From a virus: a DNA stretch of 24,032 nucleotides. This document shows, one piece after another, positions 1 through 21,957 of this stretch; the stretch's first letter is position 1, and every line of letters starts with the position of its first letter. The notes beneath the pieces are model-generated. The model ran no database searches, was not told where the DNA came from, and was given only the letters and a program-made list of their open reading frames with translations. The stretch is from positions 1 to 24,032 of the IMG/VR virus record IMGVR_UViG_3300024262_000240, one strand, 5' to 3'. A program made the position numbers and the translations under genes.

Positions 1-3000
1 GTGTACCGCTATTGGCTACTGTACTAATTGTAAAATCAGTAATGTTAATAATAGTGTTAACATAATAAACTGTGTTGACTACAATATTTCCGATTACTGC
101 TCCAGTAAATTTGATTGGCATACCTACTGTGAAACCAATTGTAGAACCAGATGAGTTTAACTCACCAGTTGAATCATCATATGGATTTAATCTAATTTTG
201 TTTCCAGTCGCAACAGTGTTTGTTACTCTACGAGCAAACTCAGTGTATAAAATATCTTGGTCATTAGCAGTACTGACAATTTCAAATATGGCGCCTTGTG
301 CTGAAGCAGAAATGTCACCTATAGGAGGTTGAGTTGCTTGTAATGAGATTGCTGAAGATGAAACATTTTCGCTATTAAAGTAACTACCTGCAAAGAAAGA
401 ACCATAGAAAGCATTTGCTTCCCAATCTAAGATTTGACTTGTATATGAAGTTCTATCAAATCGTAATGCGATATTGTTTTCTCTGACTGGCTGTGAACTT
501 GTAATTGCTGATGCTCTTGCGCCAAGACTAAATGAATACTGTCCATCTATAGTTGATGCACTTAATAATATTCTATTTACATTATTGACTGCATCTTTAT
601 AACTAGTAAACAATGCAATAACAACTGTTGGATTGTCTTCCAGCACATTTACATAATACCATTGGTTATTAACTAGTTGATTAACTTTAGCTCCAGTTGG
701 AGACGTTGGTACATGAAATTGTACATTACTGCCAGTAACTAAGTTAGTAGCAAACAATGTAATTGTGTGCAGTGAAGAATCAATGTTTGAATTTGTAAAT
801 GTATAATATTGAGCAGGATCTATTTTAATCTCTGGTAAGACAGCATACCCTTCTCCAGGATTTATAACATTGACACTTACTACTGAATCTACACTCATTA
901 CTGCTTCAAGTTGTGCTTCAACTCTCGGTGCTGGATAGATTGATGTATCAATGTATGCTGTAATTCTTGGTGGTTCAGTGTAACCATTACCACCACTTAA
1001 TAAAAGAACAGCAGGCAAATCCATGTAGATGTTTGCATTTGGTAAATGTGTGGCTGGCGTAGTACCATTTGCGCCTCTTTGTAATCCAGATAATTGATTT
1101 AATGCACGATCAACTGATGAATATGAAATATCTTCGTTATCAATTTTAATTGTACCATTAATTGGAAATCCTCGTACATTGTCAACTAATATAAACGTTG
1201 ACCCAATAGTAACATATGATGCTAATGTTGATAATAGATAGTTAGGTTCACCAGTGATGCTAACTCCGTAATTATTATACCACTCATTGTATTGAGGAGT
1301 TTGCCAAATTGAATCTGCATATAGATATTCATTAACATTATCCGCACTGCTATAAACAAGTTGAGGACTTACAAATCTATTAACACTTGAATTAAATTGT
1401 GCTGGCAAATCAAAGTCAGATATAGTTCCACGATAAGTGTCAAGTCCAGTATACTTAAACAAGAAGTCTTTAATAACAACATGATAAGGTTTTACTTCGT
1501 TTATATAACCTGATAAAAATTCTTGGTTATCTGATTGAAAATTTTGAATTGGTTTTAATTCTCTAATAGTATGGGTGACATCAACAAGAGAAGTTTTGTT
1601 TAACCAAGGCAAGTAGTTTTGAGACTCATCAGATTCAGCCTGAATGTATTCAAATAAAAGAATAAGCGATTTGTTTCTATATGATACAAGTTCATCAATA
1701 TAAATCTGTTCGTTTAACGCACGAATAATCCAGCGTGTTTCTTCACTTGGGTATTCATCAAACGAACTTGTATCGAAGAAGTTTTCTCCGAAGCCTGTTT
1801 TGCCTATAGCATAATCCCATAGATATGTTTTGAATTGAATCGTGCCGTTTTGTAAACCTATACGAGTCCATACTGAGTTGCCATCGTAGCGATACATTTC
1901 CCATTTGCCTTCGCCGTTTGTTTGAACATTGGCAATAGTACCTACTTTGACATTTAATGTTGCTAAGTCAGCATAGAGTAGAACACTTACAGTAGCCTTT
2001 GTGTTATTGCTATATTGTCCAACTGGGTTTGTTGTTGGCAACCACCAGTTAGTGTATTCCCAATAATCTGTAGTGTCGTAATAGGTTCCTGTGGCGAACA
2101 AGAAAGTTGCATTTTCTCTTGTTTCAGAAATTGGAATGTCTGCTAATATTGTATTAGCATATTGTAAATAATTTTGTAATCCTAAGAATCTATTAAAGAA
2201 GAAACTTTGTCTTGGTCTTGCAAGAACACCAGATTGAACTGCTTTTGGTAAGTACGGATTAGGCACAACTCCACCTATCTCATCAACACCTGCTAATGAA
2301 TCTAGCAACCTATCATAGAGTCCTCTAGGATAAATGTTTGTTCCAAATTTTGGAAGCCCAGGTAAGAAATCATCTGCATAGTTTGCACGAATTAAATTAA
2401 ATTCTTGATGAGAAGCATCATCACTCGTTCCTGTTGCATAGCCTATATGGAATACTGAATCTTGTGCGTTGATGTAAGAAGATGAGTTGTAGATTCCAAA
2501 AGCATTTTGTAACAATGGAGTAAAATAAGCAATCCCTGAATTGGTAGGATTGTTAATGTATAATTCTAAATTAGAATCAGATAATGTCTTTTGCGTAGAT
2601 GTCATTACTGTATTTGTATTTCTTACCCAGAAATAATAAACAGGAGTAGCAATGCCTGAAGCATTAAGTTTGCTTTGAATCGTAAATTCTGTTATATTTT
2701 TTGGAGTGCCAACACCTTGATAGTTTTCAGGTGAAACTGGACTTTCAATCCAAGTATAAACAACGACATCAGATCCTGGAAAAACTTGTCCCCAGTAACG
2801 ACTATTATAAACAACATCATCATTTTGGTGATAGTTGATCCATCTAACATTTTTTGTGTTGAACCACAATTCTCCAATATGATTTTCTCCCCAAATAAGA
2901 TTATAATCAATGCTACCTTCAACACCATTATAATTCGCTGGGTCAATGTTACTTACATAATCTAAGTTTTCTCTGACAGCACCTAATAATTTATTTTGCA

Positions 3001-6000
3001 TTGGATCAATGTAATCTAAATTAATTAAAGTATTATTTGTTTCTGCACTATAAATCTGTGCATTTTGTATTTTATTAATATCAACAATAGCAGAAGATTG
3101 TCTATACAATGACCAATTTTGTTTGCCGATAGAGTTTGTATAGAGAACTACTTCATCTAAAATAGGTGTGCCAATAACAACTTGATTGTTATTAAAGTCT
3201 AATGCAGTTCCGTATCTAGGTTCTGAACCAGTATTTTGATCATTAAGATTTAGACTTTGAGCATAAACAAACTTTCCTGGATTTGATAGACTAGCATTAT
3301 AGTTTGCTAATAAGTCAAACATATAAACAGCACCAGCATTTGGATAACCATCAACAAATCGAGTTGCATTATTATCAAATATAGTATCGTTGTCTAAGTT
3401 CTCGTCATCAGTAAAGTCAAATGTTGTTCCTAAGAATCTTTCACCAATCGGTGCTGAGATAACTACTGAATTATTTAATTCATTAAATTTAATTGTATTA
3501 CCAAACAGTGTTCTACTTGTATTATGCGGACATAACAAAAGTTGTGTTTGATTGTATACGTTTATTCCAAGTTCAGATAAAGTATCATCTTCAACTGTTT
3601 GTATAAGTAGTTTTTCATTAATTAATGCTAGACCTGCATTAATGATTGAGATAACAAGTTTCCCATCAGTGGCACTGGCCTGAACATTAGTAATATTACT
3701 TGAATTAATAACATTTGCTACAGTTGTAGCATTGCTACCATTTATAAGATTTACTAAGTAGCCGTTAATTAAAAGTTTTCTGTCAGCAGTAAGTAAGCAC
3801 TCACTTGTGCCTATAACTGTACCGTATTTTCCACCTGAATTGGTATATCGATATACAGCACCATCAGATGATATTTCACCATTAACTCTAGTTTCTCCTG
3901 GAGATCCTACGAGTATTTCACTTGAAGAAGATGTTATGTCACTTGCATAGCCAAACTCTTGTCCAGGGCGAACAAGTTCTGTTGACACAACTGTTTGTAC
4001 CCACTGACTATCTGAAGAACTGACAGTGATTATATCACCTGCTCTAAGTGTTCCAAAGTATCTAAGGTCTCTTGTTCCACCGCCAACTGCATAGTTACTA
4101 TCATCAACAACAGTGCCGTTCACCGAGACTTGTTTGATCAGAGAAGTGTTCTGTGCGTAAATTACACTATTAAGAGTGGCATCATCTACTAATGTGATTG
4201 CTGTACTAGATGATCTAGTTGTTTTGAGTGACATTGTACCAGCGCCAACTTCTTTAACATAATAAACTTGATTTGGACTTATGCCAGAATCTCCAAATAC
4301 TCCAACAGTGCTAAAGACTATTGCTGTATTTTCAACTAGAGCAGTACCAGTGTATGTAATTACGTTGCTTGTTACATCAGTTGCTGTTCTACTAAGAAAC
4401 ACTGTGGTCCATGCCAAATCAAATTCATGTGGTTGATTAGGGACTGTATTATATTGTGATTCAAGGGTTTGTACTGTGCGTGAATATATATACGCACTAC
4501 CATAATTAGTTAAAGTACCAGAAGTTATTGTAGGAGCACCAATGACGATTGTGTCGCCATTACCGTCTGTTGTCACAGAAGAACCAAAACTACCTGTGCC
4601 TACAGGAGATACGATTTCTGTTTCTTCATTGTATGATACTTGATTTGCTGTACCTGTACCAGAGCCTACTCCAGTAGCAACGAAAAGGATTCCTACTTTG
4701 TTGGCGACAGCACCAATTCCCACAAAGTTTGTTGGGTTTTCATAACACTCACCGTTACCTGCTATGAATCCTGCAGGCGGTGTTGTTGCTGTAAATGTTG
4801 TACCGGCATTATTATTGTTAGCACCTAGTTGAGTAAAATCTGTTGAGCCTGGGAATACAATTTCGTAAGTCAGTCCTGTCGTAATATCACTAGCACCAAT
4901 TTGTGTACCTAATGAAGTAATCTCATATGTTTCAGTCGCAGTAAAGTAACCTGCTGTTAAAGGTATGCGTTCTCTGCTAAATCTTTCTACTTTATTATTT
5001 GTTGGGTTACCAACATAAATCCAATTCTGATCATCACTGATAGATACGCAAGTACCTGCTCCTGCATCGACTGTTAATGTTTGTAATAGAATAGGATCAT
5101 CAGATATTATCGAGTCATTTACTGTGTAGATATAAACTTTACCAGATGGGGAACCTCCACCATCAGTTGTCTCTGTTATAACAAACAAACGATCTGAGTA
5201 TGCGATTGCTGTACCGAACGTTGGTCTTGGCCCACTAGCTGGTAATGTGCTGTCTGTATCTTGTACGAGAGTTGCAGTTTCAGTGTCATATGTGTAACGA
5301 TAAACTCTACCTGCATCTGTATCACCTACCCAATAACTTTGTGTTTTCGGAATAGATGCGACAGCACTACCAAACCTTTGTCCGGCTGATTCAGTTAAAG
5401 ATGTAGTTAAACTATAATTAATTGATTTACGATAAACACCCCAATTACCATCTGATGCTTCGTCTACCCAAACAGTGTTTTTAATAAACTCTGCTTCATT
5501 TAACTCTAAATCTGTTATTGCTGAAGGAGTAGCAACACGCTGATTAATAAACGTGAGTCCTAAACCGTTTCCATCAAGTACAAGATTTGTAGAAAAGTTA
5601 TTTGGCAATGTTAGGTTAATAGTAATTTGTGTTATACTATTGATTCTTGTAACAAGATGATACCCATTAACATTTGGAGTTACATTAATGAAAGACACTG
5701 AATCTAGGCGTGATAAATTATGTGGTTTATTAAATGTAATAGTGGTTGTATTATTGATGTTACTGTCTACACCAACAACTCTACCAACAGGTTTCCAAGC
5801 ATAGACTCCCCATTTTTCTTTGAAGTTTGCAAGCCACACATAATCTCTAACATAAAAATCATTAATAGGAACTGTAATCTTTGCTTGATTTTGTGCTGTT
5901 GATAATGTACCATAATAATACGATGACATTTTTACATCATTAAAATTAACATACCCTGCTGTAGGATATAAATTATCTGAATAGACAGTGCTTGACAACG

Positions 6001-9000
6001 TTGGTAATATATTTGCTGAGTCAATTGATCTGTTGTAATTAAATAAATTAGCGATGTTGACTTCTTGTTGAGAACCAACAGTTGCTGTTCCTTGTATTAA
6101 ACTAACAATTGATGGATTACCAGTTAGACTATCTTCATCAAGTTTGAAATCAACAAAGTTGCTATTGAGTGTTCCGCCAAACTCTCCAGCAAGAATTCCC
6201 CAATTTTCGTAAACATCGTAGTCTACGCCACCTTGAGGTAGATTTGCTCCTCTGAATGCAGTTACAGCATTAGGAGTTCCTTTAGTTTTAATTAAATTTT
6301 TATAAACGTTAACTTGTGTAATATCAGTTAAATCTGCTAACTCCATATATGCTCTTGGTCTATAACCAATAAGAGAGAATGCTAATAAATCAGCATCATT
6401 TTCTAAGTTTGCTGTATTTGTATTATAATAAAGCGTACTTTCATAAGAGCGAGTAGAAGGATTTGGCAGTAGACCTTTTTGTATTTGATCATATTCTGTT
6501 TCTACCCAATTCATCTCTACAAAAGTGGCATTTGGTTGTGTAATTCTAATAGCAGTCCAGTATTTGGATTTGTATCGGACAATTTCTCCTCTAGTATATT
6601 TTTGAGAAGCACTCCATTCTTTTATATTGTCTTGGTTAAGAATAAACCCTGAGGCAAAAACAGTTCCATCCCATTCAGCAGATTTTGTTCCTCTGAGACT
6701 AATGCGTGATTGTCTTAGTCCAGTAACTAAGTTATAAATCACATCATTGAATAAGGTTAAATTATCAAACACAATACCGTGTTCAATGCTACCTAAATTA
6801 AAGTTACCGTATGCTAATGTATCACCATCGTTTAATGGAATAATTGTAAAATTAGTTCCTACTCGTTGAATAGATAAGTTTTGTAAAGCAATAGGCGCTA
6901 AATTTTGATTTAGTATATAGTTATTTTCTTGTATTGTCAATGGTTGAACAATGTTATTATCTTTATCAATGACTAACGATCTTGCAGATGGATTTACAGT
7001 AATAACTGCACCATCTTCCCAACCATTTTGTGACCAATAGAGATATTGCTCGGTCATTGTTATCCAGTTAAGTTCTTTTCCAGACTCAATTGTATCAAAG
7101 ATCATTCCTTTTGCTTTTAGCCAAGCACCGTAACTACTTAAGAATTGTGAAAGTGCTTGTCGGGAATAAAATTGTGTGCCGTAAGGAACAATAAGTTCAT
7201 TTGCAATATAGTCATTAGCAACTTTAACAGTCACATCGCCAACTGAAATTTGTTGAACACTACCATTTACTTCTGGTTGATATGTTGTAAAGTATGCTTG
7301 ACTTAACGAATTACCGAAAACGGTCCAACCGTTAATCACTTTTTGAATGATGACACCAGAATAAACTAATTTATCTGTTGATTGATTATCATGTAATATT
7401 AACGAATAACTTTCATCTGGAATAAGCAAAGATGCGTTACTGTTGTTAACTGTTCCTTTTTCTACAAAGAATTTTAATAAATTCTTATCACTAAATCCAG
7501 CAAGTCGATAAACCAATCGTACATCTAAATTATCAAGTAGTGTTGTGATAGTTGTGGTTGCATCTACACCTTGTTGTTTTTCATAATCAACGATCCAGTT
7601 AATGTAACTTGTTTTTGCAGTACCATTACCATAAATCTCAATAGCACTAATATCTAAATGACTTCTATCATTTACTAGATATTGTTTGAATTCTGTGTTA
7701 TACTTGTAATTGTCTAAGTCAGCACCTAAGTTAAAGAAGTCTGCTGGTTTTGTTAATGCGAATGCTCTAATAATATCAAATGGGTATGATGAACTTCTGC
7801 GATATGAAAATTCTGCTGGAGCATCATCACCAACTCTCCAATTTTTCTGAAAGAGATTTTCATCATAGTTGGCTATGACAGTTTCCATAGGAGACAATAA
7901 ATCTCCGTACTCGTCAACTGGTAAAATGTTACTTAATCCTGGTCGTTTTAATTCATTAACAGTAACTGATGCACCTAAAGATCCATTCCAAATAACACCG
8001 TCTTCAATGTCTGTCCACATGATAGTGTTGTTACTTGTATAAGGGGCGGCACCATATCGTGCAGTCCACCAAGTTGGCTTATTTGCAAATCCGAGCATTT
8101 CCCATGGAGCAATATTAGGCTGTGATGAATCGTAGAAGTATTCATATATGCCTCTCCAGTAACCCTGATAAAGAGCAGTGCCAGTTAACTTATTAGATGA
8201 CTCAGTATAGTTGTATGAAAATTTATCCAGACTAGAGTAATTTGAATGTGTTTTGTAATCAATTCTATTTTGTCCTGCCCAATTTAAGAACTGAGGACTA
8301 TAAATTTTTAACCAATCTAAATTACTATAAGTTGAGTCTCTAAAAAATCCAGGTAAAACTTCATATCGTTTAATTGGTACTTCAGTACTTAATTTAATGT
8401 TATTATAGATTCTAGTTTCAAACTCTAATAATGCTTGGTCTCTAAAATCAGTAAGACCTAAAATCGCATTATACTCGCCGTATAATTTTGTATACGATCC
8501 ATCATGTCCTACAATAAAATATGTAGGGGTAGTATAAGTAGAATCTAATACAACTTGTGGAGTATATGCTGGATATAATCCTAATTTACTCGGAGTATTT
8601 GGAACAAAACTTCCATATGTTTGATTGTATTCTTTAATTGTAATAACATCACCTGGTTGTAAGGTAATTGTTACTGTTAATGAAGTTGCTGTTGTTGAAA
8701 CAGTGTATTGTTCATTTCTAATTAATTGCGTAGTTATAGTTGTTGGGCCATCATTAACTTTACGAGTAAGATAAACTAAAACACCATTATAGTTTGCTTT
8801 TGTAAAATCGTATGTTTGTGCTAATGGATAAACTGTTTCTTGTAATGCGTTAGCAAATGTGTAGGTGCTAGTTTTGTATGGTACCTGCGATGGTAACATA
8901 TCACTCCAGAAAAACGAATCAGTATTGTTTTTAGCACTAATAATAGAATCTAATGCTGTGTCTAATATTTCTGCTGGATTGTATCGTTGTTCATAGTCTG

Positions 9001-12000
9001 TATTTTTAACAGTGTCAACAATAGTTTGTTTGAAGGAAACATAACTGTTACTGTTATAGAGTAAAGCCTTAAATAAGTTATGCTCTGACTTGCGTAAAAA
9101 TGTTCCAGGCGTCACTAGAGAAGCAGAGTTTTGAATAATATTTGTACCGTATGGAACAAGATTTCCTAAATCTCTGTAATTATTAGAACCAAATAATTGA
9201 CCTGTTATTCCTGGAGTATTTGTAAAAATACTTTGATACTGAGTTCTAATTTCGCCTAAATCTGCTGACGCTAATGTTCCGTTAAACGGATTATTGTTTA
9301 AGTTAATCGGTATTCTGTAATATGCTGTTTTACTAGTAATAGTACTTAATAGTAAAATTTGTATAGGCGTATCTGTTGTTGGTGCAGTGTTTAATGTTAC
9401 TTTTGTTGTTGTGTCAGTTACATTAACTGTGTAAGTACTAGGCAATTGATACACGTTGTTGAGATAAACTTGTATTCTTGGCCATTTAGCCGTGACAGTC
9501 GGATCTTCTGGTACAGCAGGTACATCACACGTAAATTCGGCTGTGGTCCCTTTAGTATATTCTAGTTCAAAAATTTGATATTGAACTGAGGGGGCAATTG
9601 CTGTTTGCCAACCTAATTCACGTGTTTTTATAGCACGTGTATTATAATTATACACATACCCTGTATTAACTTTTTGTGTAATAGGAGATGTTCCACTTAC
9701 ATACGAAAATGATTCTGAATTTAATGAGACATCAAAGTTTATGTCTCCAATATTGTTAATACTAGAGTACTTGAGGGGGAATCCTAAAACAGCATCAGTT
9801 GCCCCTGTGCCTATAGTATATGCAAATAATTTATTACCTAAAAATGATGTGCCTTGATAAATTGTTGCATCACCAAACGAGATTCCATTAGAGTCATACA
9901 CATCAAACAGTGGTGCTTGATTGACTGTTAGTTTTTGTTGTCCTTCTTCCCAAGTTGATCCGTCAAACCAGAATGTAGAACCTTGGTTGTAATATCCTCT
10001 TAATGAAACAGTTTGATTATCTACTAGAACTGGAGAATCTTCTGATTCTGTTAATGTAATGACTGGTGTTGCTCCAGGAGTAAACACTGAAAAGCCAACA
10101 ACATAAATTTTATTTCTAACTTGTAAGTCAGTGTCTGCTGTAAAAACAATTCTTGCACCAGAGAATAATTGATAGTTGTTGACAGTTGTATCACTACCAA
10201 CAATAGATGCTATAGATGTTCCTGCGAACGTAGAAGCAGTTGCCCATACTACAGTTATAACAGTATTAATTCCAGTTACAGTGATGTCTGTAATCGTTGT
10301 GTTTCTTGGTAACTGATTAGTAGAGTCAGCAACATACTGTCCAACTTGGAATGGCTTAGTAATGTTAGTTGTCGCAACTGTTATTGTTGTAGTTGTAGCC
10401 GCTGTGGCTGCCGCTATCGTTGCGTTGTACGGTGTGTATGACTCGATATCTGGATAATATTGTTGTTGATTAGCAACTTGTGCAAATGCATTTGTTGTGC
10501 GTGTATCAACAAAGTCTACTGGTGCTTTTGCTTCTGTACCAGCATCAAATAATTTTGTATTTGGATAAAACTCAATAATCGGACGTTTTGCTTTGTTAGT
10601 GCCCGTTGCATATGTAGTAAGAATATTTGGATCATCGTTATATGTTGCAGTTGCATTGATGACATCAATATGGAACCATCTGTTTGACCGTGACCAAGCA
10701 TTTCTATTAATTGCATTTCTAGCAATCGTAATATAATCTGGATCAACAGGTATAAACAATTCAACATCGAAGTTACCAATTGAATAGTTTAATGAATCAT
10801 AAGGAATATAACTAGTGCCAGTAAAATCTTCTGGGACTGTTAACTCAGATACTGGAACAAGTTTAATTGCAACACCCACACCTTCAACGTAGTATTCTCC
10901 TGACAGATAACTAGCAGGGAAAACATCTCCACTGAACTGAACTTTAAGTCCGTTAGTAAAAGTTACACCATTAGTTGATGTAAAAGTTTCTTGTCCTATA
11001 ATATCGGTAGTAACATTTAATGTGTTCGTTAAGTTACTATCAACAATTCTTAATATTCCCGCCCTGTTTGCAATTGTGCCATCTTGGTAGTATAATGTAT
11101 CGAGTTGTGCTGACAAATATGGAATTTCTAAAATAGATCCACTAGTAGAACTACGATAGAAATTTAAGCCAACATAACTAGTACCAAATTGTGCTGTGAT
11201 CTTTTCTTCATTTGGAATTGCACCAGCCGGTATTAAACGAATAGTTGGGTTGGTTGCATCGCCAACGTATGTAATTGTATAAAAGTTTTCACTAACGTTT
11301 GTGTAATAGCCTTCTTCAAAAAGACCTTCGTTAATGTTTGCGTTCATTGTTCCAGATTCAGGAGTCAATACCAATGCAGAACTATTCAATTGATCTGAAA
11401 TCTTAAATGATGTTCCATTAACAATTTCTTTTATATAGTAAACTGTATTAACATCTAATCCACCTAATAATGGATCACCATCTGGTTGAGTAAATGTAAC
11501 TGTCTGATTTAGAAATAAGTTAGCAGTTGATCCAGATGTGACAACTGCGTCAGCAGTAGTTGATGTGATTGCTAATGTAACTGCTGGAACAAGATCAGGA
11601 GATGTTAAGTTAACATCATAGTTTGCTCCGTTCTCATCAAAGAATGATTGTACAAAGCCTACTTCATTGGGCTCTTCAGTGGCATAGAACATCACAGTGA
11701 GATTCTCAAGTGATGTAACTCCGTCAATGTTACCTATAGTTGATAATGGTTGTCCGTTGATATCAGAAAAAAGTTTAGTGCTAACAACACCAACTGTGTT
11801 GTTTCCTGGAAACAAATATTGATCTTGTGCATTTTGTTGAGGCACAGTAAATGTAACATACCCCGTAGATGCTCCGTTATTATTAACACCTAATACATTT
11901 CTTGTATTTTCATTACCATCTAACCCAGTAACTCCTGGTACGCCTTGAATCCAAAACTGAGTTGATTGATTGATTGCAAAACGATATGTTCCGCCACGCA

Positions 12001-12547
12001 ACAAACTTAAAGTAGGATTTGTTGCTCCAGCGTTAGATGAAGTACTAATAGAATAGCCAGATGCATCTGGAACAACTGTGTAGTCAGTCTCGGAAAATAT
12101 AGTTCCTGATGCTACTGTAACTGCTGGAGGACCTTCTGGAATCCAATAATATTGATTAAAATTAATTAACTTGTCTAAGTTACTAAACGAATCCCAAGAA
12201 TAAAATTCACTTGTAAATAATTTATTGTTATCTTTAGTAACACTGCCTTCTGTTGAGAGAGCATCAATTATTCCAGGGTAAGTAATAAAATCTTGTGCTG
12301 TTGATTCATTTGTTTTTAAGAACACTACACCAGGATCTAACTGATAATCTGTGCGAACTTTTGACGGCTCAATAACATAATTGTCATCAGCGTTAACGCC
12401 ATAGCCAAATTTACTTCCAATATATCCTTGTAGTCGTTCTGTTTCAGGCGGATTAACTAATTGGTCAAGGGTCGCTCTTAAAAACTGAGAATTGGTCGCA
12501 GTTTGAAAGATTTCTGGTAAAAAACTTAATGTTCTTATATGTGACAT
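1..12547 (-). CDS. Giant virion structural protein next to gp6, partial (3' end outside window)
   Basis: Starts at ATG 12547, 17 nt after the gp6 stop, with AGG seven bases before the start. Reading the frame codon by codon to base 2, I found no stop, so at least 4,182 residues lie in the window and the end is missing. The N-terminus (MSHIRTLSFLPEIFQTATNS) and the W/Y-rich block near residues 1475-1520 (PWEMLGF..KPTWW..RYGAAPY) look like a very large structural protein seen in marine T4-like phages. Residues about 2385-3130 hold seven FG-GAP type units (RFGSA, TFGTA, GTCVS, SFGSS, EFGYA, LFGNT, RYGTA) ending in xVxIGxP and VYxY strands, a beta-propeller fold. Residues about 3780-3910 hold fibre-like modules (GFPINGTIKI, GLQRGANGT, GGNGYTEPP, GEGYAVLPE). 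T4 has gp7 (about 1,030 residues) at this place, so a wedge gp7 equivalent enlarged by adhesin-like modules is possible but not shown. Role inferred: baseplate or fibre structure at the virion surface. Confidence 0.9.
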   Translation of the reverse strand, partial: MSHIRTLSFLPEIFQTATNSQFLRATLDQLVNPPETERLQGYIGSKFGYGVNADDNYVIEPSKVRTDYQLDPGVVFLKTNESTAQDFITYPGIIDALSTEGSVTKDNNKLFTSEFYSWDSFSNLDKLINFNQYYWIPEGPPAVTVASGTIFSETDYTVVPDASGYSISTSSNAGATNPTLSLLRGGTYRFAINQSTQFWIQGVPGVTGLDGNENTRNVLGVNNNGASTGYVTFTVPQQNAQDQYLFPGNNTVGVVSTKLFSDINGQPLSTIGNIDGVTSLENLTVMFYATEEPNEVGFVQSFFDENGANYDVNLTSPDLVPAVTLAITSTTADAVVTSGSTANLFLNQTVTFTQPDGDPLLGGLDVNTVYYIKEIVNGTSFKISDQLNSSALVLTPESGTMNANINEGLFEEGYYTNVSENFYTITYVGDATNPTIRLIPAGAIPNEEKITAQFGTSYVGLNFYRSSTSGSILEIPYLSAQLDTLYYQDGTIANRAGILRIVDSNLTNTLNVTTDIIGQETFTSTNGVTFTNGLKVQFSGDVFPASYLSGEYYVEGVGVAIKLVPVSELTVPEDFTGTSYIPYDSLNYSIGNFDVELFIPVDPDYITIARNAINRNAWSRSNRWFHIDVINATATYNDDPNILTTYATGTNKAKRPIIEFYPNTKLFDAGTEAKAPVDFVDTRTTNAFAQVANQQQYYPDIESYTPYNATIAAATAATTTTITVATTNITKPFQVGQYVADSTNQLPRNTTITDITVTGINTVITVVWATASTFAGTSIASIVGSDTTVNNYQLFSGARIVFTADTDLQVRNKIYVVGFSVFTPGATPVITLTESEDSPVLVDNQTVSLRGYYNQGSTFWFDGSTWEEGQQKLTVNQAPLFDVYDSNGISFGDATIYQGTSFLGNKLFAYTIGTGATDAVLGFPLKYSSINNIGDINFDVSLNSESFSYVSGTSPITQKVNTGYVYNYNTRAIKTRELGWQTAIAPSVQYQIFELEYTKGTTAEFTCDVPAVPEDPTVTAKWPRIQVYLNNVYQLPSTYTVNVTDTTTKVTLNTAPTTDTPIQILLLSTITSKTAYYRIPINLNNNPFNGTLASADLGEIRTQYQSIFTNTPGITGQLFGSNNYRDLGNLVPYGTNIIQNSASLVTPGTFLRKSEHNLFKALLYNSNSYVSFKQTIVDTVKNTDYEQRYNPAEILDTALDSIISAKNNTDSFFWSDMLPSQVPYKTSTYTFANALQETVYPLAQTYDFTKANYNGVLVYLTRKVNDGPTTITTQLIRNEQYTVSTTATSLTVTITLQPGDVITIKEYNQTYGSFVPNTPSKLGLYPAYTPQVVLDSTYTTPTYFIVGHDGSYTKLYGEYNAILGLTDFRDQALLEFETRIYNNIKLSTEVPIKRYEVLPGFFRDSTYSNLDWLKIYSPQFLNWAGQNRIDYKTHSNYSSLDKFSYNYTESSNKLTGTALYQGYWRGIYEYFYDSSQPNIAPWEMLGFANKPTWWTARYGAAPYTSNNTIMWTDIEDGVIWNGSLGASVTVNELKRPGLSNILPVDEYGDLLSPMETVIANYDENLFQKNWRVGDDAPAEFSYRRSSSYPFDIIRAFALTKPADFFNLGADLDNYKYNTEFKQYLVNDRSHLDISAIEIYGNGTAKTSYINWIVDYEKQQGVDATTTITTLLDNLDVRLVYRLAGFSDKNLLKFFVEKGTVNNSNASLLIPDESYSLILHDNQSTDKLVYSGVIIQKVINGWTVFGNSLSQAYFTTYQPEVNGSVQQISVGDVTVKVANDYIANELIVPYGTQFYSRQALSQFLSSYGAWLKAKGMIFDTIESGKELNWITMTEQYLYWSQNGWEDGAVITVNPSARSLVIDKDNNIVQPLTIQENNYILNQNLAPIALQNLSIQRVGTNFTIIPLNDGDTLAYGNFNLGSIEHGIVFDNLTLFNDVIYNLVTGLRQSRISLRGTKSAEWDGTVFASGFILNQDNIKEWSASQKYTRGEIVRYKSKYWTAIRITQPNATFVEMNWVETEYDQIQKGLLPNPSTRSYESTLYYNTNTANLENDADLLAFSLIGYRPRAYMELADLTDITQVNVYKNLIKTKGTPNAVTAFRGANLPQGGVDYDVYENWGILAGEFGGTLNSNFVDFKLDEDSLTGNPSIVSLIQGTATVGSQQEVNIANLFNYNRSIDSANILPTLSSTVYSDNLYPTAGYVNFNDVKMSSYYYGTLSTAQNQAKITVPINDFYVRDYVWLANFKEKWGVYAWKPVGRVVGVDSNINNTTTITFNKPHNLSRLDSVSFINVTPNVNGYHLVTRINSITQITINLTLPNNFSTNLVLDGNGLGLTFINQRVATPSAITDLELNEAEFIKNTVWVDEASDGNWGVYRKSINYSLTTSLTESAGQRFGSAVASIPKTQSYWVGDTDAGRVYRYTYDTETATLVQDTDSTLPASGPRPTFGTAIAYSDRLFVITETTDGGGSPSGKVYIYTVNDSIISDDPILLQTLTVDAGAGTCVSISDDQNWIYVGNPTNNKVERFSRERIPLTAGYFTATETYEITSLGTQIGASDITTGLTYEIVFPGSTDFTQLGANNNNAGTTFTATTPPAGFIAGNGECYENPTNFVGIGAVANKVGILFVATGVGSGTGTANQVSYNEETEIVSPVGTGSFGSSVTTDGNGDTIVIGAPTITSGTLTNYGSAYIYSRTVQTLESQYNTVPNQPHEFDLAWTTVFLSRTATDVTSNVITYTGTALVENTAIVFSTVGVFGDSGISPNQVYYVKEVGAGTMSLKTTRSSSTAITLVDDATLNSVIYAQNTSLIKQVSVNGTVVDDSNYAVGGGTRDLRYFGTLRAGDIITVSSSDSQWVQTVVSTELVRPGQEFGYASDITSSSSEILVGSPGETRVNGEISSDGAVYRYTNSGGKYGTVIGTSECLLTADRKLLINGYLVNLINGSNATTVANVINSSNITNVQASATDGKLVISIINAGLALINEKLLIQTVEDDTLSELGINVYNQTQLLLCPHNTSRTLFGNTIKFNELNNSVVISAPIGERFLGTTFDFTDDENLDNDTIFDNNATRFVDGYPNAGAVYMFDLLANYNASLSNPGKFVYAQSLNLNDQNTGSEPRYGTALDFNNNQVVIGTPILDEVVLYTNSIGKQNWSLYRQSSAIVDINKIQNAQIYSAETNNTLINLDYIDPMQNKLLGAVRENLDYVSNIDPANYNGVEGSIDYNLIWGENHIGELWFNTKNVRWINYHQNDDVVYNSRYWGQVFPGSDVVVYTWIESPVSPENYQGVGTPKNITEFTIQSKLNASGIATPVYYFWVRNTNTVMTSTQKTLSDSNLELYINNPTNSGIAYFTPLLQNAFGIYNSSSYINAQDSVFHIGYATGTSDDASHQEFNLIRANYADDFLPGLPKFGTNIYPRGLYDRLLDSLAGVDEIGGVVPNPYLPKAVQSGVLARPRQSFFFNRFLGLQNYLQYANTILADIPISETRENATFLFATGTYYDTTDYWEYTNWWLPTTNPVGQYSNNTKATVSVLLYADLATLNVKVGTIANVQTNGEGKWEMYRYDGNSVWTRIGLQNGTIQFKTYLWDYAIGKTGFGENFFDTSSFDEYPSEETRWIIRALNEQIYIDELVSYRNKSLILLFEYIQAESDESQNYLPWLNKTSLVDVTHTIRELKPIQNFQSDNQEFLSGYINEVKPYHVVIKDFLFKYTGLDTYRGTISDFDLPAQFNSSVNRFVSPQLVYSSADNVNEYLYADSIWQTPQYNEWYNNYGVSITGEPNYLLSTLASYVTIGSTFILVDNVRGFPINGTIKIDNEDISYSSVDRALNQLSGLQRGANGTTPATHLPNANIYMDLPAVLLLSGGNGYTEPPRITAYIDTSIYPAPRVEAQLEAVMSVDSVVSVNVINPGEGYAVLPEIKIDPAQYYTFTNSNIDSSLHTITLFATNLVTGSNVQFHVPTSPTGAKVNQLVNNQWYYVNVLEDNPTVVIALFTSYKDAVNNVNRILLSASTIDGQYSFSLGARASAITSSQPVRENNIALRFDRTSYTSQILDWEANAFYGSFFAGSYFNSENVSSSAISLQATQPPIGDISASAQGAIFEIVSTANDQDILYTEFARRVTNTVATGNKIRLNPYDDSTGELNSSGSTIGFTVGMPIKFTGAVIGNIVVNTVYYVNTIINITDFTISTVANSGT

Positions 12548-12564
12548 TTATTTACCTATCCACA

Positions 12565-15500
12565 TTAACGGGCATATTGTAGTTCAGTGGGCGTTAGTGC
12601 CGGAATAATAACAACATCTGTTGGCAAGGCACCATTAACAAAAATTTCGTATGGTCTGCATTTAATTTCATAGAGAGTTCCAAAATTTGCGTTAGGATCA
12701 GTTGGAACTAACACTACTGAACCAAGCAAATCTCCGATTGTTTCGTGTAAATACGCACTTAGTTCATCAAAGAAGAAAGTGTCTCCAAAATTCCAATTAT
12801 TAATACTAAAATATGTATCCATTGCTGTAATAACAGCACTTCTAACTTCTGTATCACTTGCATTAGTATCAGTAGATTTTACAATTTTAATACTAGCCCT
12901 CAACGATGCATCTGCTTTAGAACCAAATAATGGTTTGAATGTGACACTATTTAATATCACACTGTCAGAGAGCATTTTATAATCTTGTATTTTTGGATAA
13001 GCAGTTGTTAATTGATTAATCGTAGGCTCTGATGGTTTTGTGACCGTGTTAGTTGTGTCTCTAATCCAATTTTGATAACTTGTATAATAATCTTGTGTTA
13101 CTAAATACAAATCAATAATATTTGTAGTAGCAGGATCAATACGAGTTGTATTATTCGCATTGTGTCTATATTGGAAACTTAAACCTTGACGACCTGATTT
13201 AACTGAGTAATCTGTTTGTAATGTTACAACATAAAATGGTGTGGTAACAGTTGGATCTTGTATAGTTTTATAAAATTTATTTTCTGAATATGCGTAGAAT
13301 AATTGTCCTACAGCAAACTCATACTTTACAGTTTCAATTTGATTTTTAGTACTATAACTATAGTTTACATCTGTATTTGGAACTATTAGTTGTCTTGTTA
13401 AATTGATAGGGTCAGTTACAGTTCTAAAGAACACATAGATGCCGATGTTTGCTCCGTTATTCACATACCCAGTAACATCATTAAAGAAGTCTGGGTCTAA
13501 AATAAGTGTTCGATTATTAACATCTGTCGCCGCAACTTCAACTTGGAAGTCATTGACATAACCATCAGATTCAACTGTCTGTCCTAAAATATTAACTTTC
13601 GTATTTACACCTAACGCAGTAGTTGTACCAAATTGTGCGTTGATACCCAACACATTAATAAAGTCTTGTATGATTTTGCCTGTAAATGGATCGTACACTA
13701 ATTCGTTCTTACTAAAAGTAAATCGTGTATCAGCAACACTACCAAAGTAGTATGTCAGTGATCTATATGTCACTATGTATCGATTGCTTCCTAAACTTGT
13801 AAACTTGACAAAGTAATTAGTTGCTGTAGAGGCACCGATTGACCAACGCTCTTGGTTGATCAACAATGAATTATTAAAGATTAATGTAAAGTCTTGCTGT
13901 AATTCAATTTTAAGAATTGCTTGTTGTATTAAAGTTGATGACAAAGAGTTATCAAAGACAGGAATAACTTGTGTAAGTGTAACGCCGTCTGGTACATAAC
14001 CGTTAATTGTCACAGGGCCTGTACCATTTGCAAATGAACCTTGTCCAGTATTATTGCCATCTCCGACTACATTAGTAATAGTTGACCAAATATAATTCTT
14101 TTCACCAGAAGTTGGAATGCCTGAAACTAATCGATTGCTACTATTAAAATAATAACCAGCGGGAGCGGTTAATTTTACAATTGATCCTGTTGTAATATAC
14201 TTTGCATTTGTTGTAGTAAATGTACCTAAAGGTGCTGGCTGTTGTAAACTTCCACTTAAAGTATAAAAATAACCAGATTCACTTGATGAGTCAACTGAAC
14301 TTGTTTTCCAATACATGGTTGTGCCGCCACCAGTGCCGGGATAGGTGTAACGAGTATAGTTCTGAATATAATATTGATTAGCACGATTTAATGCTAAAGC
14401 AGATGCTAGATCACCAGTAAAGAATCTAATAATACTGCTTGTATTATCTGCTGTTAAGGATAAAGCACCATCTGTATTAGTTTGATATAATGCTCCATCA
14501 CTACCGAAAGAGTTTGTACTAGAATATTTTCCAGTTGGGTCAAGTAAGTCTAAGTTTTTAGAAACGCCGATAGAACTTCTATTGATCGCAGAACTTTTAA
14601 TGATTGAACTATAAAGTGTGTATGGGAAGTTTGTGTAGTCTTCTCCATTTACCATACGATTCTGTGTGTAGTATCGTGTAGGCGCTCGAAGTTTTATCTG
14701 ACCTAACGACTCTCTACCTTGTGCAGTCGAAACACTTGATGGTAGTTGTAAATTTAATGTTAGTGTTTCTGGTTTTCCTGCTCTACTAATATAATTAATA
14801 GCAACGATTACACCAGCCATTTCAGATGGATCAATAACATATGTTAATGAGTTTCCAGAACGCACATATGATCTAAAGTTGCCAACTGGTATTTCAGAAA
14901 ATACTCCATCGCCAAATACATATGTTACTTGATCATTTGTTCGGGAACTTACTGAGAATACTTTTTTATCAGAATTTTCTGTTTGTAAGTACGCATCTGC
15001 AAAAACATTTTCAACTTGTGTCCAAGATGTTCGTGTGCCGTTAGCATTAAGTTCATACAACCAAGTATCACTGTTATTAATTCCTTCAATATTTGAAATA
15101 TTAACCGCTTGATTTGATATTTGTTGTTGTAGATTAAAATTAAAACTCTCTAAAGTTCCTTGTTTGAAATAAAACATAAACCCTGTATTTGGAGATCCAA
15201 ATCCTAACTTATCATTTCTGTATAAAAGATTTAATCGTCCTGTAGGAGTAGGAGAAACTTCGTAGACATAATTTTTGCCTAATGAAGTTGAACTTACTAA
15301 TTCAAAATTCATTGTTTGGTTATCTACAACTGATGTAAATGGGACAACTGGCAAAACAGTATTTGGAATACGAATGCTATATTCACTTGTTTGTACATCA
15401 TCAATTGTTGCTACATTTCCAGGATTTCCAATTTTTTGAGAATCAACAAATGTCGCATTTAAGATAGTATTCATTTGTTCTAACCAATTTGGATTAGAAG

Positions 15501-15939
15501 GATTATTCCATGACACAGGAACATTACTTAAATTTATACCATTGATGTCACTGATGTTTTCAGTGGTTTGTACTTGCGTAACTTTAATAAATCCTTGGCC
15601 AGCGATATTTCTTTTAGGAGTATAACTTACTAGATTAGCAAGTTTAATAACTGAGTCTCTACGTTCAGCAGTATCGATAAAGTTCTCACGTGCGTTTAGA
15701 TCATTTCTGAACGCTAGGCCTTGACCCATAAACGCCATAACATCGAGTAACGCAATAAATTCAGAACTTTCAATATAATCATTGAATGTTTCTGGGTAAT
15801 ATACACGCAGGTAGTCAATAAAACTCTTTCGTAGTGTTTCATAATCATAACTTCTAAAGTCTGCTTCTCTGAAGGTTTGATAGATTGCTTTCCAATCATT
15901 TACCCCAAATAGACTCGATTGTCGTGAACTTGTTGCCAT
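12565..15939 (-). CDS. gp6: Baseplate wedge protein gp6
   Basis: 1,124 residues. The N-terminal 125 residues (SLFGVNDWKAIYQTF, DFRSYDYETLRKSFIDYL, FIDTAERRDSVIKLA, LVSYTPKRN) are the hallmark of T4-like gp6, the wedge subunit whose dimers form the inner ring around the baseplate hub. The C-terminal 120 residues (YFSINNWNFGDTFFFDELSAYLHE, FGTLYEIKCRPYEIFVNGA, here in parts) match the conserved gp6 end. T4 gp6 is about 660 residues; the extra length is a Ser/Thr/Asn/Gly-rich central stretch, roughly residues 430-700, likely an inserted beta-rich domain. ATG at 15939 is preceded by AGGGAA at good spacing and by a late-promoter octamer 19 nt upstream. The giant structural gene follows after 17 nt. 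Confidence 0.93.
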   Translation of the reverse strand: MATSSRQSSLFGVNDWKAIYQTFREADFRSYDYETLRKSFIDYLRVYYPETFNDYIESSEFIALLDVMAFMGQGLAFRNDLNARENFIDTAERRDSVIKLANLVSYTPKRNIAGQGFIKVTQVQTTENISDINGINLSNVPVSWNNPSNPNWLEQMNTILNATFVDSQKIGNPGNVATIDDVQTSEYSIRIPNTVLPVVPFTSVVDNQTMNFELVSSTSLGKNYVYEVSPTPTGRLNLLYRNDKLGFGSPNTGFMFYFKQGTLESFNFNLQQQISNQAVNISNIEGINNSDTWLYELNANGTRTSWTQVENVFADAYLQTENSDKKVFSVSSRTNDQVTYVFGDGVFSEIPVGNFRSYVRSGNSLTYVIDPSEMAGVIVAINYISRAGKPETLTLNLQLPSSVSTAQGRESLGQIKLRAPTRYYTQNRMVNGEDYTNFPYTLYSSIIKSSAINRSSIGVSKNLDLLDPTGKYSSTNSFGSDGALYQTNTDGALSLTADNTSSIIRFFTGDLASALALNRANQYYIQNYTRYTYPGTGGGTTMYWKTSSVDSSSESGYFYTLSGSLQQPAPLGTFTTTNAKYITTGSIVKLTAPAGYYFNSSNRLVSGIPTSGEKNYIWSTITNVVGDGNNTGQGSFANGTGPVTINGYVPDGVTLTQVIPVFDNSLSSTLIQQAILKIELQQDFTLIFNNSLLINQERWSIGASTATNYFVKFTSLGSNRYIVTYRSLTYYFGSVADTRFTFSKNELVYDPFTGKIIQDFINVLGINAQFGTTTALGVNTKVNILGQTVESDGYVNDFQVEVAATDVNNRTLILDPDFFNDVTGYVNNGANIGIYVFFRTVTDPINLTRQLIVPNTDVNYSYSTKNQIETVKYEFAVGQLFYAYSENKFYKTIQDPTVTTPFYVVTLQTDYSVKSGRQGLSFQYRHNANNTTRIDPATTNIIDLYLVTQDYYTSYQNWIRDTTNTVTKPSEPTINQLTTAYPKIQDYKMLSDSVILNSVTFKPLFGSKADASLRASIKIVKSTDTNASDTEVRSAVITAMDTYFSINNWNFGDTFFFDELSAYLHETIGDLLGSVVLVPTDPNANFGTLYEIKCRPYEIFVNGALPTDVVIIPALTPTELQYAR

Positions 15940-15999: not shown

Positions 16000-16446
16000 T
16001 TAGATAATTTGTGCTGTATTACTAGTGCTATCAAACAATAGACTAAGATCACCAACTTCATTAAATGGCGTGACAGACAGTTCAATTTGAACTAAAATAC
16101 CGTTATCACGGGCATAAACATTAACTCTGTTTAACATTAGTCTTGGATCTAAGGTAGCGACTCTACGAATTTCTTCTTCTAGTGCTTGTTGAACATTTAC
16201 TGTATTTGGCTCAAATACAAAATCCCAAATGCTTGTTCCATAAGAAGGATTGCCAACTTTTTCGCCTCTTCGTATATTTAATGCATTAAGGAAATCTCGT
16301 ACAACTAACGGAGAATCTACCATTTTGAACTTTTTACCAAAAACGATTGGCTCAGTGATTGTACCTGGACCATACCCGCCATTTTTTTGGCTGGTGGTTC
16401 TAGGTTCTGATGCGTTAATTGATGAAAAGCCTATGTAAGTTGCCAT
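16000..16446 (-). CDS. gp25: Baseplate wedge protein gp25 (GPW/gp25 family)
   Basis: 148 residues; T4 gp25 has 132. Gp25 sits in the wedge core next to gp6 and gp53 and is thought to help start sheath assembly. Family signs: VRDFLNALNIRRGEKVGN, then YGTSIWDFVFEPN, then ALEEEIRRVATLDPRL with the conserved EIRR motif at about residues 89-92, then a beta-rich end (NGILVQIELSV). The N-terminal 40 residues (GFSSINASEPRTTSQKNGGY) are an extension of low complexity. ATG 16446 is chosen because the family match follows and the upstream gene stops eight nt before it. The ribosome site (AAGGGA) lies rather far from the ATG, and a late-promoter octamer overlaps this junction. Confidence 0.93.
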   Translation of the reverse strand: MATYIGFSSINASEPRTTSQKNGGYGPGTITEPIVFGKKFKMVDSPLVVRDFLNALNIRRGEKVGNPSYGTSIWDFVFEPNTVNVQQALEEEIRRVATLDPRLMLNRVNVYARDNGILVQIELSVTPFNEVGDLSLLFDSTSNTAQII

Positions 16447-16671: not shown

Positions 16672-17265
16672 TTATAAGTTTCCTAAAATATCATCAATTT
16701 CGTTAGTCGCAGGAGCTTTCTGTAGCTCTCGGAGTTTTTCTGTTCTTTTAGTCAATGCTCCTACATCAAAATTTGGTAGTGGAATTTTTGGATTACCTAA
16801 CAAAGAAGAAGTTTGTCCTATTAATGCACTTTTGTCAAGTGTATTGAATGCAGATATTGGTAGTTTGAAACTACTGCCTTGAGATGCTAAAGACCCTAAT
16901 GCTCCTTCAATTCCTGCTAATGCACCTCCACCAAGTTTGCCTAATAATGAATCTTTTAGACCATTAACTTTTCCTAACTCCCCGCCTAACGCACCATCTA
17001 CTCCGCCTGACACAGCGTCTGTAATAGATGATATCCCTGGCAATTTAGAACTTATTGCAGATGATTGATTAATAACTGCTCCCAATGAAGAAGACCCGCC
17101 CGGTAAAGCAGAAACACCTGATGCCGCAGCCGCGGCAATTGATGGGACTAATCCTGAGTTTACTTTGTTACTAACGACCTCAGCATTACCAGATGCGATC
17201 AAACTACTTACACTTGCGCCTGTTGTGTCTATGTTTGCATTTGCGATGTTAGTATGTACTGACAT
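16672..17265 (-). CDS. Ala/Gly/Ser-rich hypothetical protein after the gp5 spike
   Basis: 197 residues, not recognised. Nearly the whole protein is low-complexity Ala/Gly/Ser/Leu (SIAAAAASGVSALPGG, LGGELGKVNGLKDSLLGKLGGGALAG), followed by a more ordinary charged end (LTKRTEKLRELQKAP, NEIDDILGNL). No signal peptide is clear; the glycine-rich runs look like helical or collapsed repeats rather than a membrane segment. Its composition resembles the last 280 residues of the upstream gp5-like protein, so it could interact with or derive from that tail. ATG 17265 has AAGGAAAT just upstream and lies nine bases after the gp5 stop. A hub or tail-tip accessory role is inferred from position only. Confidence 0.75.
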   Translation of the reverse strand: MSVHTNIANANIDTTGASVSSLIASGNAEVVSNKVNSGLVPSIAAAAASGVSALPGGSSSLGAVINQSSAISSKLPGISSITDAVSGGVDGALGGELGKVNGLKDSLLGKLGGGALAGIEGALGSLASQGSSFKLPISAFNTLDKSALIGQTSSLLGNPKIPLPNFDVGALTKRTEKLRELQKAPATNEIDDILGNL

Positions 17266-17274
17266 ATTATTTCC

Positions 17275-19572
17275 TTATTTTATATTTTTTTTCGCAATCT
17301 CTACTAAATTTTGCGAAATTCCTGGAGAGAACGGCACATAAGATTGTAGAATAGCATTAAATCCAGATTTTGCAAGACCAGCCGTAAGACTCTTAATGTC
17401 TGAAAAACTTGGTGTTTTTGCGAGTTCACCTAATGATGAAGCAAGTCCAGCCAATGGCCCAGCTCCAAGTGCAATTGATGCTGATAATGTTCCAGATCCT
17501 ATGCCCTTTAATGTATCTAAACTAGGAGTTCCACCTTTTAATGCTGATAATGTATTTGTTGCTGATGTTGCTATTCCGGCTGGATCTGATGCGACAGCAT
17601 TAACCATGCCAGCAATTGCACCTGCTGATTCTTTTCCTGATATTGCTCCAGCAACAGTTAATGCAGACTGTGCTTTTTTCATTCCAGAAACAACAGTCGA
17701 GGCTTGAATACTTGAACTTGACATTACTGCTGTCAATGACGATGCTCCGCCGGATCCAGTAAACATAGATGATGGCATTGACTTTGTTACATCTTTTCCT
17801 GAGTTGATTAATGTATTTACGAGGGTATCTGTTCCTGGTTTCATTACACCTCCAGAAACGAGTTGCTCTGGTGTTAAGCCTGCCGAGCCTACTATTACTG
17901 ATTTTGTTTGTGTCAATGTATCTGTTACGATAGATGTTCCTTTTGATACAGCATCTTTAAGTACAGGGGTGGTGCTAGTTGCTGTTACTTTATTTGAAAT
18001 TAAGCTAGATGTAATATCCTTAGACAACGAGGAACTAATTTCTTCATTGTCTGGAATTGATGCCATCGTAGATACTGCTATTCCTGGGCCGCTTGACCCT
18101 GCACTTTCATTAATAAGGTTTTGTACCCCTGCAGGAGGATCAGCAGGAAGTTCATCTCCAAGTTTTGGAGCATCTCTTAATGTCACGCCTTTGTCCCAAC
18201 TTTCCCAGCCACCTAAGTGAGCAGGAGTCCGCGAACATATAGATAATAAACTAGCCGGTGCACATGCAAATCCTTTTTCAGAACTATAAGCAGTATCTGA
18301 ATGTGGTTGAAGTTTTATGGCTGTAACTCCAGTTGGTTGAGTTGAAGCAATGCCAGAATTCAACATAACTTTTTTTCCTTTAACAAATGCTTTACCTTCA
18401 GCCTGTAATGATGCATCTCCACCACTAGCAAAACTTGTGGCAGAGAGGCCAAAACCTAATAAATTTTTAACTGCATATAATTCTATGTCTTCTGTTGCTC
18501 TTGCTGTAAGAGATTTTCCTGATTCTATTTTAAGTCCTTCTACTGCATACATGTTAAGTTTTTTTGACGCATGTATATTTACATCTTGGTCTGCATGAAA
18601 ATTCAAGTCTCCTTTACTTCGTAGATTAATAGAATTTGTTGCAAAGACATCAATTGTTCCTTCTGGTCCTAATTCTATGAACGACTGACCATTTGAATGT
18701 AATATTGATAATAGTTGGCCATTGTCGCTCATTGATATCTGATGGCCTGCTGATGTGCGAATTCGTATTAATTGATCATTGCCAACAGCGTCTCCATCAT
18801 CCATAACGATTGAATGTCCACCTTGTCTTCCAATAATTTTTTGTTCTGCAAGTGTTGAATCTAATGTAGTAAGTACATCTCCACCACCCGCTTGGTAAAT
18901 TGCTCTGCCAGGAGTGCTTACACCCCAGCCTACTCGACTAGGACTTTCTCTGGACGCACTTGTAGTAATAGGTCCTCTTATAGGATCTCTGATGACTCCT
19001 TGTGTATTCATAGTTTGACCAACATATGAATGTACTGGACTAGCATTTGCATTAGTCAATTTTTTGTTACTTGTATTAATGTTTGTGGTTGGTAAAGTAG
19101 TTGCTCCTCCATAAGCGGATGCCTCTCCTTCATTAACAGTTATATTTTCTTTGCTACCAATAGCAGGAACCATTTGTAACAAATTTGGCTCTGCCACAGA
19201 ACCTAGGTAAAATGCTTGTCCACTATCACCATTACCGTATATTACCATGACTTGAGTACCAACTTCTGGTGGCGAGTTCCATTGTCCGTATGAATGAGGA
19301 GTCGATAAGTAGTCTCCTAATCCATCAGATGGTCCTACAGAGGAAGTTGAACTAAAAAATGAATTTAATCTTTTTGCTTGTGTCCAAGAATTTTTGCTCT
19401 TTGGAGCAAGTTCAAAAGAAGTACTTGGATAAACATAAATAATACCATTCCCAGCAGTATTGCTCATAACGGTACAAATTTCAGGTAATGTGTGACCGCC
19501 AGGATACCCTGCATTTACTTTGTTTCTATTAAGAGTTTTATTACTGCTTTCTGGTCCTAAATTAATACTCAT
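17275..19572 (-). CDS. gp5: Baseplate hub spike, gp5-like, without lysozyme domain
   Basis: 765 residues. Residues about 30-135 form the gp5/VgrG-type OB fold (LPEICTVM, then PPEVGTQVMVIYGNGD and AFYLGSV). Residues about 246-290 carry GRQGGHSIVMDDGD and IRTSAGHQISM, typical of VgrG/gp5 proteins. Residues about 300-400 are short strand repeats (TNSINLRSKGDLNFHA, DVNIHASKKLNMYA, GKSLTARA, DIELYA) of the kind that build the trimeric beta-helix needle. T4 gp5 has a lysozyme domain between these parts; none is visible here, as in several marine T4 relatives. The last 280 residues or so are Ala/Ser/Gly-rich and unassigned. ATG 19572 is preceded by GGAGGAT, which lies inside the last codons of the upstream gene. 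Role: central membrane-piercing spike of the baseplate. Confidence 0.85.
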   Translation of the reverse strand: MSINLGPESSNKTLNRNKVNAGYPGGHTLPEICTVMSNTAGNGIIYVYPSTSFELAPKSKNSWTQAKRLNSFFSSTSSVGPSDGLGDYLSTPHSYGQWNSPPEVGTQVMVIYGNGDSGQAFYLGSVAEPNLLQMVPAIGSKENITVNEGEASAYGGATTLPTTNINTSNKKLTNANASPVHSYVGQTMNTQGVIRDPIRGPITTSASRESPSRVGWGVSTPGRAIYQAGGGDVLTTLDSTLAEQKIIGRQGGHSIVMDDGDAVGNDQLIRIRTSAGHQISMSDNGQLLSILHSNGQSFIELGPEGTIDVFATNSINLRSKGDLNFHADQDVNIHASKKLNMYAVEGLKIESGKSLTARATEDIELYAVKNLLGFGLSATSFASGGDASLQAEGKAFVKGKKVMLNSGIASTQPTGVTAIKLQPHSDTAYSSEKGFACAPASLLSICSRTPAHLGGWESWDKGVTLRDAPKLGDELPADPPAGVQNLINESAGSSGPGIAVSTMASIPDNEEISSSLSKDITSSLISNKVTATSTTPVLKDAVSKGTSIVTDTLTQTKSVIVGSAGLTPEQLVSGGVMKPGTDTLVNTLINSGKDVTKSMPSSMFTGSGGASSLTAVMSSSSIQASTVVSGMKKAQSALTVAGAISGKESAGAIAGMVNAVASDPAGIATSATNTLSALKGGTPSLDTLKGIGSGTLSASIALGAGPLAGLASSLGELAKTPSFSDIKSLTAGLAKSGFNAILQSYVPFSPGISQNLVEIAKKNIK

Positions 19573-21648: not shown

Positions 21649-21957
21649 TTATACTCCAAGTGTTGCAACTAACTGTGACTGTAAGGGGATATAAATTTTA
21701 ACTCCCGTTTTGAAATTAAAATACGGATCAGGTCCTAATACATTTGGGTTTCTGGCCGCAAACACCCACCATAATTTTGAATTAGAATATAAATCCTGTG
21801 CTAATAAATCTGGTCTATACTCATACTGTGTTGTGATCGTAAATAACGAATCTGATGAATTTTTAGGAATAGGTCTATAATTTAATACATCTAAAAATGT
21901 GCCGCCAAAAAGTTTCGTATTAGCGTATGGACTAGATGCTGGGTATATTTCTGCCAT
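21649..21957 (-). CDS. gp53: Baseplate wedge protein gp53
   Basis: 102 residues from ATG 21957. The T4-like gp53 family signature is plain: YPASSPYANTKLFGGTFLDVL, then LFTITTQYEYRPDLLAQDLY, SKLWWVFAARNPN and a C-terminal IYIPL strand. Gp53 clamps wedges together around the hub and has a LysM-like core. An upstream in-frame TTG would add two residues, but it lies only a few bases from GGAGGAT, whereas ATG 21957 lies about nine bases from it; the ATG also overlaps the stop of the preceding gene (TAATG). That overlap points to translational coupling. Length matches marine homologues and is somewhat below T4 gp53 (196). Confidence 0.9.
   Translation of the reverse strand: MAEIYPASSPYANTKLFGGTFLDVLNYRPIPKNSSDSLFTITTQYEYRPDLLAQDLYSNSKLWWVFAARNPNVLGPDPYFNFKTGVKIYIPLQSQLVATLGV

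Follow-up and report, generated by a model that had tools for sequence, protein, structure and literature searches.

A giant virion protein gene beside gp6 in a viral baseplate block and its counterparts in Rak2-like phages and cyanophages

Introduction

In bacteriophage T4 the gene for gp7 (PHROG 964), a protein of 1,032 aa, occupies the slot after gp6. The wedge of phage XM1, (gp16)2-gp17, equals the (gp6)2-gp7 wedge, and its gp7 counterpart, gp17, has 242 aa and uses flexible or extra parts to bind tail spikes (PMC10457771), so that the size of gp7 is known to vary widely. Giant proteins in the gp7 slot were also known before, since those of cyanophages (Kyanoviridae; PHROGs 701, 2885 and 4406) reach at least 6,405 aa. 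That length belongs to S-RIM50 gp154, whose annotation reads "baseplate wedge initiator gp7"; further examples are RN05-S (4,337 aa), ACG-2014f gp113 (4,225 aa) and ACG-2014e gp083 (3,495 aa), the last two from phages that retain a separate gp8, and the PHROG 701 profile spans 6,136 positions. Predicted proteins of up to 7,694 aa have been reported from huge-phage genomes (PMC7162821).

The closest known systems to the gene described here are found in Rak2-like jumbo phages, where isolate genomes carry versions of 10-13.7 kb. The proteins inspected range from 3,323 to 4,555 aa: Phosso, 4,555 aa; Atu_ph07 gp180, 4,449 aa; PA5oct gp355, 3,857 aa; SCTP-2 gp140, 3,807 aa; CBB gp236, 3,340 aa; XbC2, 3,339 aa; and 121Q gp582, 3,323 aa. 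Mass spectrometry of purified CBB virions recovered CBB_236 through 21 unique peptides, at a coverage of 7.72% (PMC5259590). The record of PA5oct gp355 carries an ESI-MS/MS note.

Results

The window analysed here is a virus record of 24,032 bases, taken whole (Table 1). A minus-strand frame is free of stops from the ATG at 12547 to base 2, at the contig edge. About 307 stops would be expected by chance at the base composition of this ORF (GC 0.347; log10 P of remaining open about -139), and the remaining five frames contain 228-505 stops across the same interval. Third-position GC is low throughout (0.18-0.25) and codon-position GC is even from end to end, as in one continuous coding gene. 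The preliminary description had reported a single uninterrupted gene of more than 12.5 kb, and this count of 4,182 codons bears it out. Because the window is the entire record, the contig stops inside the gene and the 3' end cannot be read from the window, which carries about two thirds of the gene.

The end that had been placed beyond the window is supplied by relatives. A scan of IMG/VR yielded 80 of them, and the final 600 residues visible in the window served as the query against 22 of their records. In every one of the 22, many of which come from different samples, with identities of 38-73%, the frame lacks internal stops and is open for 5,377-6,765 aa. Nine complete genes could be read, eight encoding 6,265-6,597 aa and one 5,373 aa, with masses of about 685-718 kDa for the five that were computed. 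Residues 1-4182 of the window protein align to residues 1-4145 of one relative (L088, 6,419 aa) at 67% identity, which indicates that some 2,275 aa are missing from the window protein and predicts a complete product of about 6,450 aa and 700 kDa. Thus the length, given earlier as four times that of T4 gp7 on the visible 4,182 residues, is an underestimate. The giant is among the largest phage proteins known, as had been supposed, but it is not exceptional as a kind, given those in PHROGs, isolates and cyanophages; it is a true giant of an already catalogued family, with a length close to the top of the size range. A break in the frame was seen at one of the 80 related loci (L012), where a single frameshift at about 15500-15670 is followed by homology in the adjacent frame at 82% identity; it may be a sequencing error or real.

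The giant matches PHROG 10938 ("virion structural protein", a profile of 3,324 positions) in five stretches, and tblastn recovered matches in 83 phage records, nearly all from Rak2-like jumbo phages. The category given to the family in PHROGs is head and packaging rather than tail. By its CBB and PA5oct homologues, we take the protein to be a virion component. The surrounding genes agree with the T4-like baseplate block proposed for this DNA: late sigma factor, gp53-like, gp5-like, gp25, gp6 and giant follow one another in the window as in 121Q, XbC2, PA5oct and CBB, the gp53-like neighbour being annotated in 121Q, XbC2 and CBB, and the order gp25-gp6-giant also occurs in Atu_ph07 and Phosso. 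All the isolate homologues lie downstream of gp25 and gp6, although in SCTP-2 these neighbours are annotated as hypothetical. The window gp6-like protein itself has a tblastn match to Rak2-like gp6.

Conservation between the window protein and six isolates is concentrated in three blocks (Table 1). AlphaFold models were made for residues 1080-2279 (mean pLDDT 68) and 2991-4130 (67), about 56% of the visible protein. In the first, PDB fold searches returned small-domain matches only, including a chitin-binding fold: the CBM5/12-like domain superimposes on the chitin-binding domain 2d49 over 43 columns (Foldseek prob 1.00, TMt 0.67, rmsd 2.1), and Pfam CBM_5_12 also matches the PA5oct and Atu_ph07 homologues weakly. 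The second model gave nothing significant in the PDB fold search, and no meaningful match came from searching PDB sequences, whether with the protein alone or with two profiles. The best BFVD fold matches were predicted phage proteins, including an Atu_ph07 structural protein, and that search thus recovers the giant's own family. Between the conserved core and the block at about residues 3120-3720, a Pfam FG-GAP_2 match (E 1.6e-4; 22.3 bits, slightly under the 23-bit cut-off) marks a probable beta-propeller, whose blade number was judged by eye.

The window protein has five copies of a repeat of about 60 residues (approximate consensus NTVYYV...I...TFTIS), which was not found in the six Rak2-like isolates compared. 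Seven of eight relatives longer than 6,200 aa carry 16-18 copies (the eighth, L094, has 7), mostly beyond residue 4,000. Across 27 proteins, length and repeat number are correlated (Spearman 0.68, a descriptive value as the sequences are related). A natural short form of 4,013 aa (L056, 5919-17960) is devoid of most of what corresponds to residues 4019-6206 of L088 and retains the last 210 or so C-terminal residues, which identifies the array as an insert before a conserved C-terminus. What makes the marine forms longer is the probable beta-propeller region together with about 17 repeat copies ahead of that C-terminus.

Table 1. Features of the window, all on the minus strand. Residue numbers refer to the giant protein.
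Feature	Coordinates	Strand	Residues or size	Basis or remark
Virion structural protein	21957..22790	-		PHROG 12050, E 5.9e-43
gp53-like baseplate wedge subunit	21649..21963	-		PHROG 7145, E 2.8e-24
Virion structural protein	19576..21645	-		PHROG 11190, E 4.7e-18
gp5-like hub/spike protein	17275..19572	-		PHROG 13211, E 1e-22
gp25-like sheath initiator/wedge subunit	16000..16446	-		Pfam GPW_gp25, E 6.4e-9
gp6-like baseplate wedge subunit	12565..15939	-	1,124 aa	PHROG 10646, E 2.4e-244; PHROG 219, E 1.5e-19
Giant virion structural (baseplate) gene	2..12547	-	4,182 codons visible	ATG start; PHROG 10938, E 8e-260
N-terminal conserved segment	12068..12547	-	1-160	Common to Rak2-like isolates
YYV repeat copy	11360..11545	-	335-396	Repeat search
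YYV repeat copy	10844..10987	-	521-568	Repeat search
Conserved core	5888..10750	-	about 600-2220	Most shared with Atu_ph07, PA5oct, SCTP-2, 121Q, XbC2
Chitin-binding type-3 (CBM5/12)-like domain	6488..6637	-	1971-2020	Pfam, AlphaFold/Foldseek
KGT motif YKNLIKTKGTPNAVTAF	6236..6304	-	2082-2104	Possible counterpart of T4 and cyanophage gp7 FY.(S/T)KG(T/I)
FG-GAP-type repeats	3158..5386	-	about 2388-3130	Pfam FG-GAP_2, FG repeat positions
YYV repeat copy	4181..4369	-	2727-2789	Repeat search; within propeller region
Second conserved block	1388..3190	-	about 3120-3720	RPRQS and VKPYH motifs
Two small modules	779..1228	-	3774-3860 (GLQRGANGT), 3847-3923 (GGNGYTEPP)	Common to cyanophage giants
YYV repeat copy	614..748	-	3934-3978	Repeat search
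YYV repeat copy	8..154	-	4132-4180	Near start of relatives' C-terminal array

Of the earlier proposal that this is the gene at the gp7 position, the slot after gp6 holds, but identity with gp7 is too strong a claim, the homology searches having turned up no more than a short motif. The comparison by profile and structure prediction suggested at that time came out negative: a T4 gp7 profile (26 sequences) aligned by hhalign to the whole visible giant in 500-aa windows gave probabilities of at most 0.8%, PHROG 964 went unmatched by the giant in profile searches, and gp7 was not among the PDB fold matches of the two moderate-confidence models. The gp7 N-terminal helix (the helix-turn-helix of the core bundle) was also considered as a shared element and rejected, as the N-terminus of the giant ranks low. 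No separate T4-type gp7 was found in ten other records searched, five of them fragments, and in Rak2-like records gp8 and gp10 gave fragment matches only, with no full-length match.

The one gp7-like trace is the KGT motif, invariant in the aligned relatives and in six of six isolates, with candidate counterparts in the KG(T/I) segments of T4 gp7 (FYSTKGIEASYKFLF) and S-RIM50 (FYSTKGTTFSIEYLF). A profile was built from 74 gp7 and cyanophage segments around the motif, which had been picked by eye beforehand. This pre-picked site of about 20 residues was the best of 206 windows, with a score of 22.1 and a probability of 36%; the next independent site scored 14.1 and 60 column shuffles reached at most 14.2. 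Because the motif was chosen by eye first and the probability is just 36%, the likeness is suggestive. Whole-domain homology between the giant and gp7 was not detected.

The cyanophage giants resemble the window giant in their gp25-gp6-giant order, their size class, the two small modules and, possibly, the KGT motif. The modules gave hhalign probabilities of 89% and 75% against the ACG-2014e giant and a blastp value of 4.7e-6 against S-RIM50 gp154; in profile comparison they, at about residues 3774-3923, were the only matches, and most of the length matched nothing. The S-RIM50 giant, unlike that of the window, is without the 60-residue repeat. As a separate observation, an insert of cyanophage gp8 (PHROG 438, positions about 185-270) recurs several times within cyanophage giants and within the Atu_ph07 giant (L131:30324-32135, W01), which points to a mobile small module common to baseplate proteins.

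Discussion

What the sequences show directly is the open frame, the membership of a family, the order of the genes, the repeats and the size series. We consider the product to be, probably, a giant wedge protein in the baseplate of a Rak2-like jumbo myophage, where it performs the job of gp7; most likely it is a gp7-like wedge protein enlarged by the insertion of domains. This reading is supported by the PHROG 10938 match, the shared gene order and the detection of the CBB and PA5oct homologues in virions, together with the lack of a separate gp7, the giants in the same slot of cyanophages, the KGT motif and the freedom of size seen in XM1. It is weakened by the negative profile and fold comparisons, by the negative result for the N-terminal helix and by the head category assigned in PHROGs.

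The negative profile and fold comparisons favour a different baseplate protein, a peripheral giant or adhesin that occupies the slot while another protein serves as gp7, and the beta-rich modules, the CBM5/12-like fold and the repeats do resemble parts of fibres and adhesins. We nevertheless regard this explanation as unlikely, if deserving of some weight, as the giant strictly adjoins gp6 in all relatives inspected, no other gp7 candidate was found in the records searched, and the KGT motif and the cyanophage parallel also speak against it. The clearly modular layout of the giant, and the lack in Rak2-like records of a separate T4-like gp7 and of any full-length match to gp8 or gp10, would also suit a polyprotein or fusion cleaved into several baseplate proteins at assembly. 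This we judge to be improbable to a considerable degree, since the mass-spectrometry reports give the homologue as one gene product, intact mass not being shown in them. The idea that misassembly or a chimera accounts for the length can practically be dismissed: the metagenomic contig does end inside the gene and L012 has its frameshift, but all 22 related records, many from different samples, have unbroken frames, the L012 homology resumes in the adjacent frame, and isolates carry genes of 10-13.7 kb.

If the giant does act as gp7, each wedge would, on the model of T4 and XM1, contain a single copy paired with a gp6 dimer around the hub, with gp25 initiating the sheath above the giant-gp6 wedge. 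The conserved core (residues 1-160, 600-2220 and 3120-3720) would form the wedge and its contacts, and the CBM5/12-like domain, the FG-GAP propeller and the 60-residue repeat array past the contig edge would point outward. These beta-domains would either take the place of the peripheral structures that T4 makes from gp8-gp12 or carry them, touching glycans or holding fibres. Orthology to gp7, a single copy per wedge, an outward location and contact with glycans are all features that we infer. The boldest version, in which a wedge protein of about 700 kDa replaces the whole T4 set of gp7, gp8 and gp10 (and perhaps gp11/12) and marine lineages extend it with further copies of the 60-residue beta repeat to form a flexible fringe that surrounds the baseplate and touches glycans, seems to us doubtful.

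The giant connects the large proteins found at the gp7 position in Rak2-like jumbo phages with those in the same slot of cyanophages, a connection that does not prove orthology. With one gene in one slot, the family forms a size series that begins at about 3.3 kaa, where there are no repeats, and extends to about 6.6 kaa, where there are about 17. This series, together with the natural short form, allows the role of the added domains in giant baseplate proteins to be studied by comparison.

Several observations were made on the neighbouring genes. The gp5-like protein of the window matches spike/OB parts, and Pfam found no lysozyme domain in it. Between it and the gp25-like gene, at 16672-17265, is a gene for a 197-aa protein rich in Gly, Ser and Ala that has no PHROGs match; in 121Q a separate lysozyme occupies this slot. 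In relatives, the genes downstream of the giant (L099:198-8902) encode a PHROG 11259 protein, then a product whose C-terminus weakly resembles Peptidase_G2, and then radical SAM proteins, one of which contains a SPASM domain; radical SAM genes are unusual beside tail genes.
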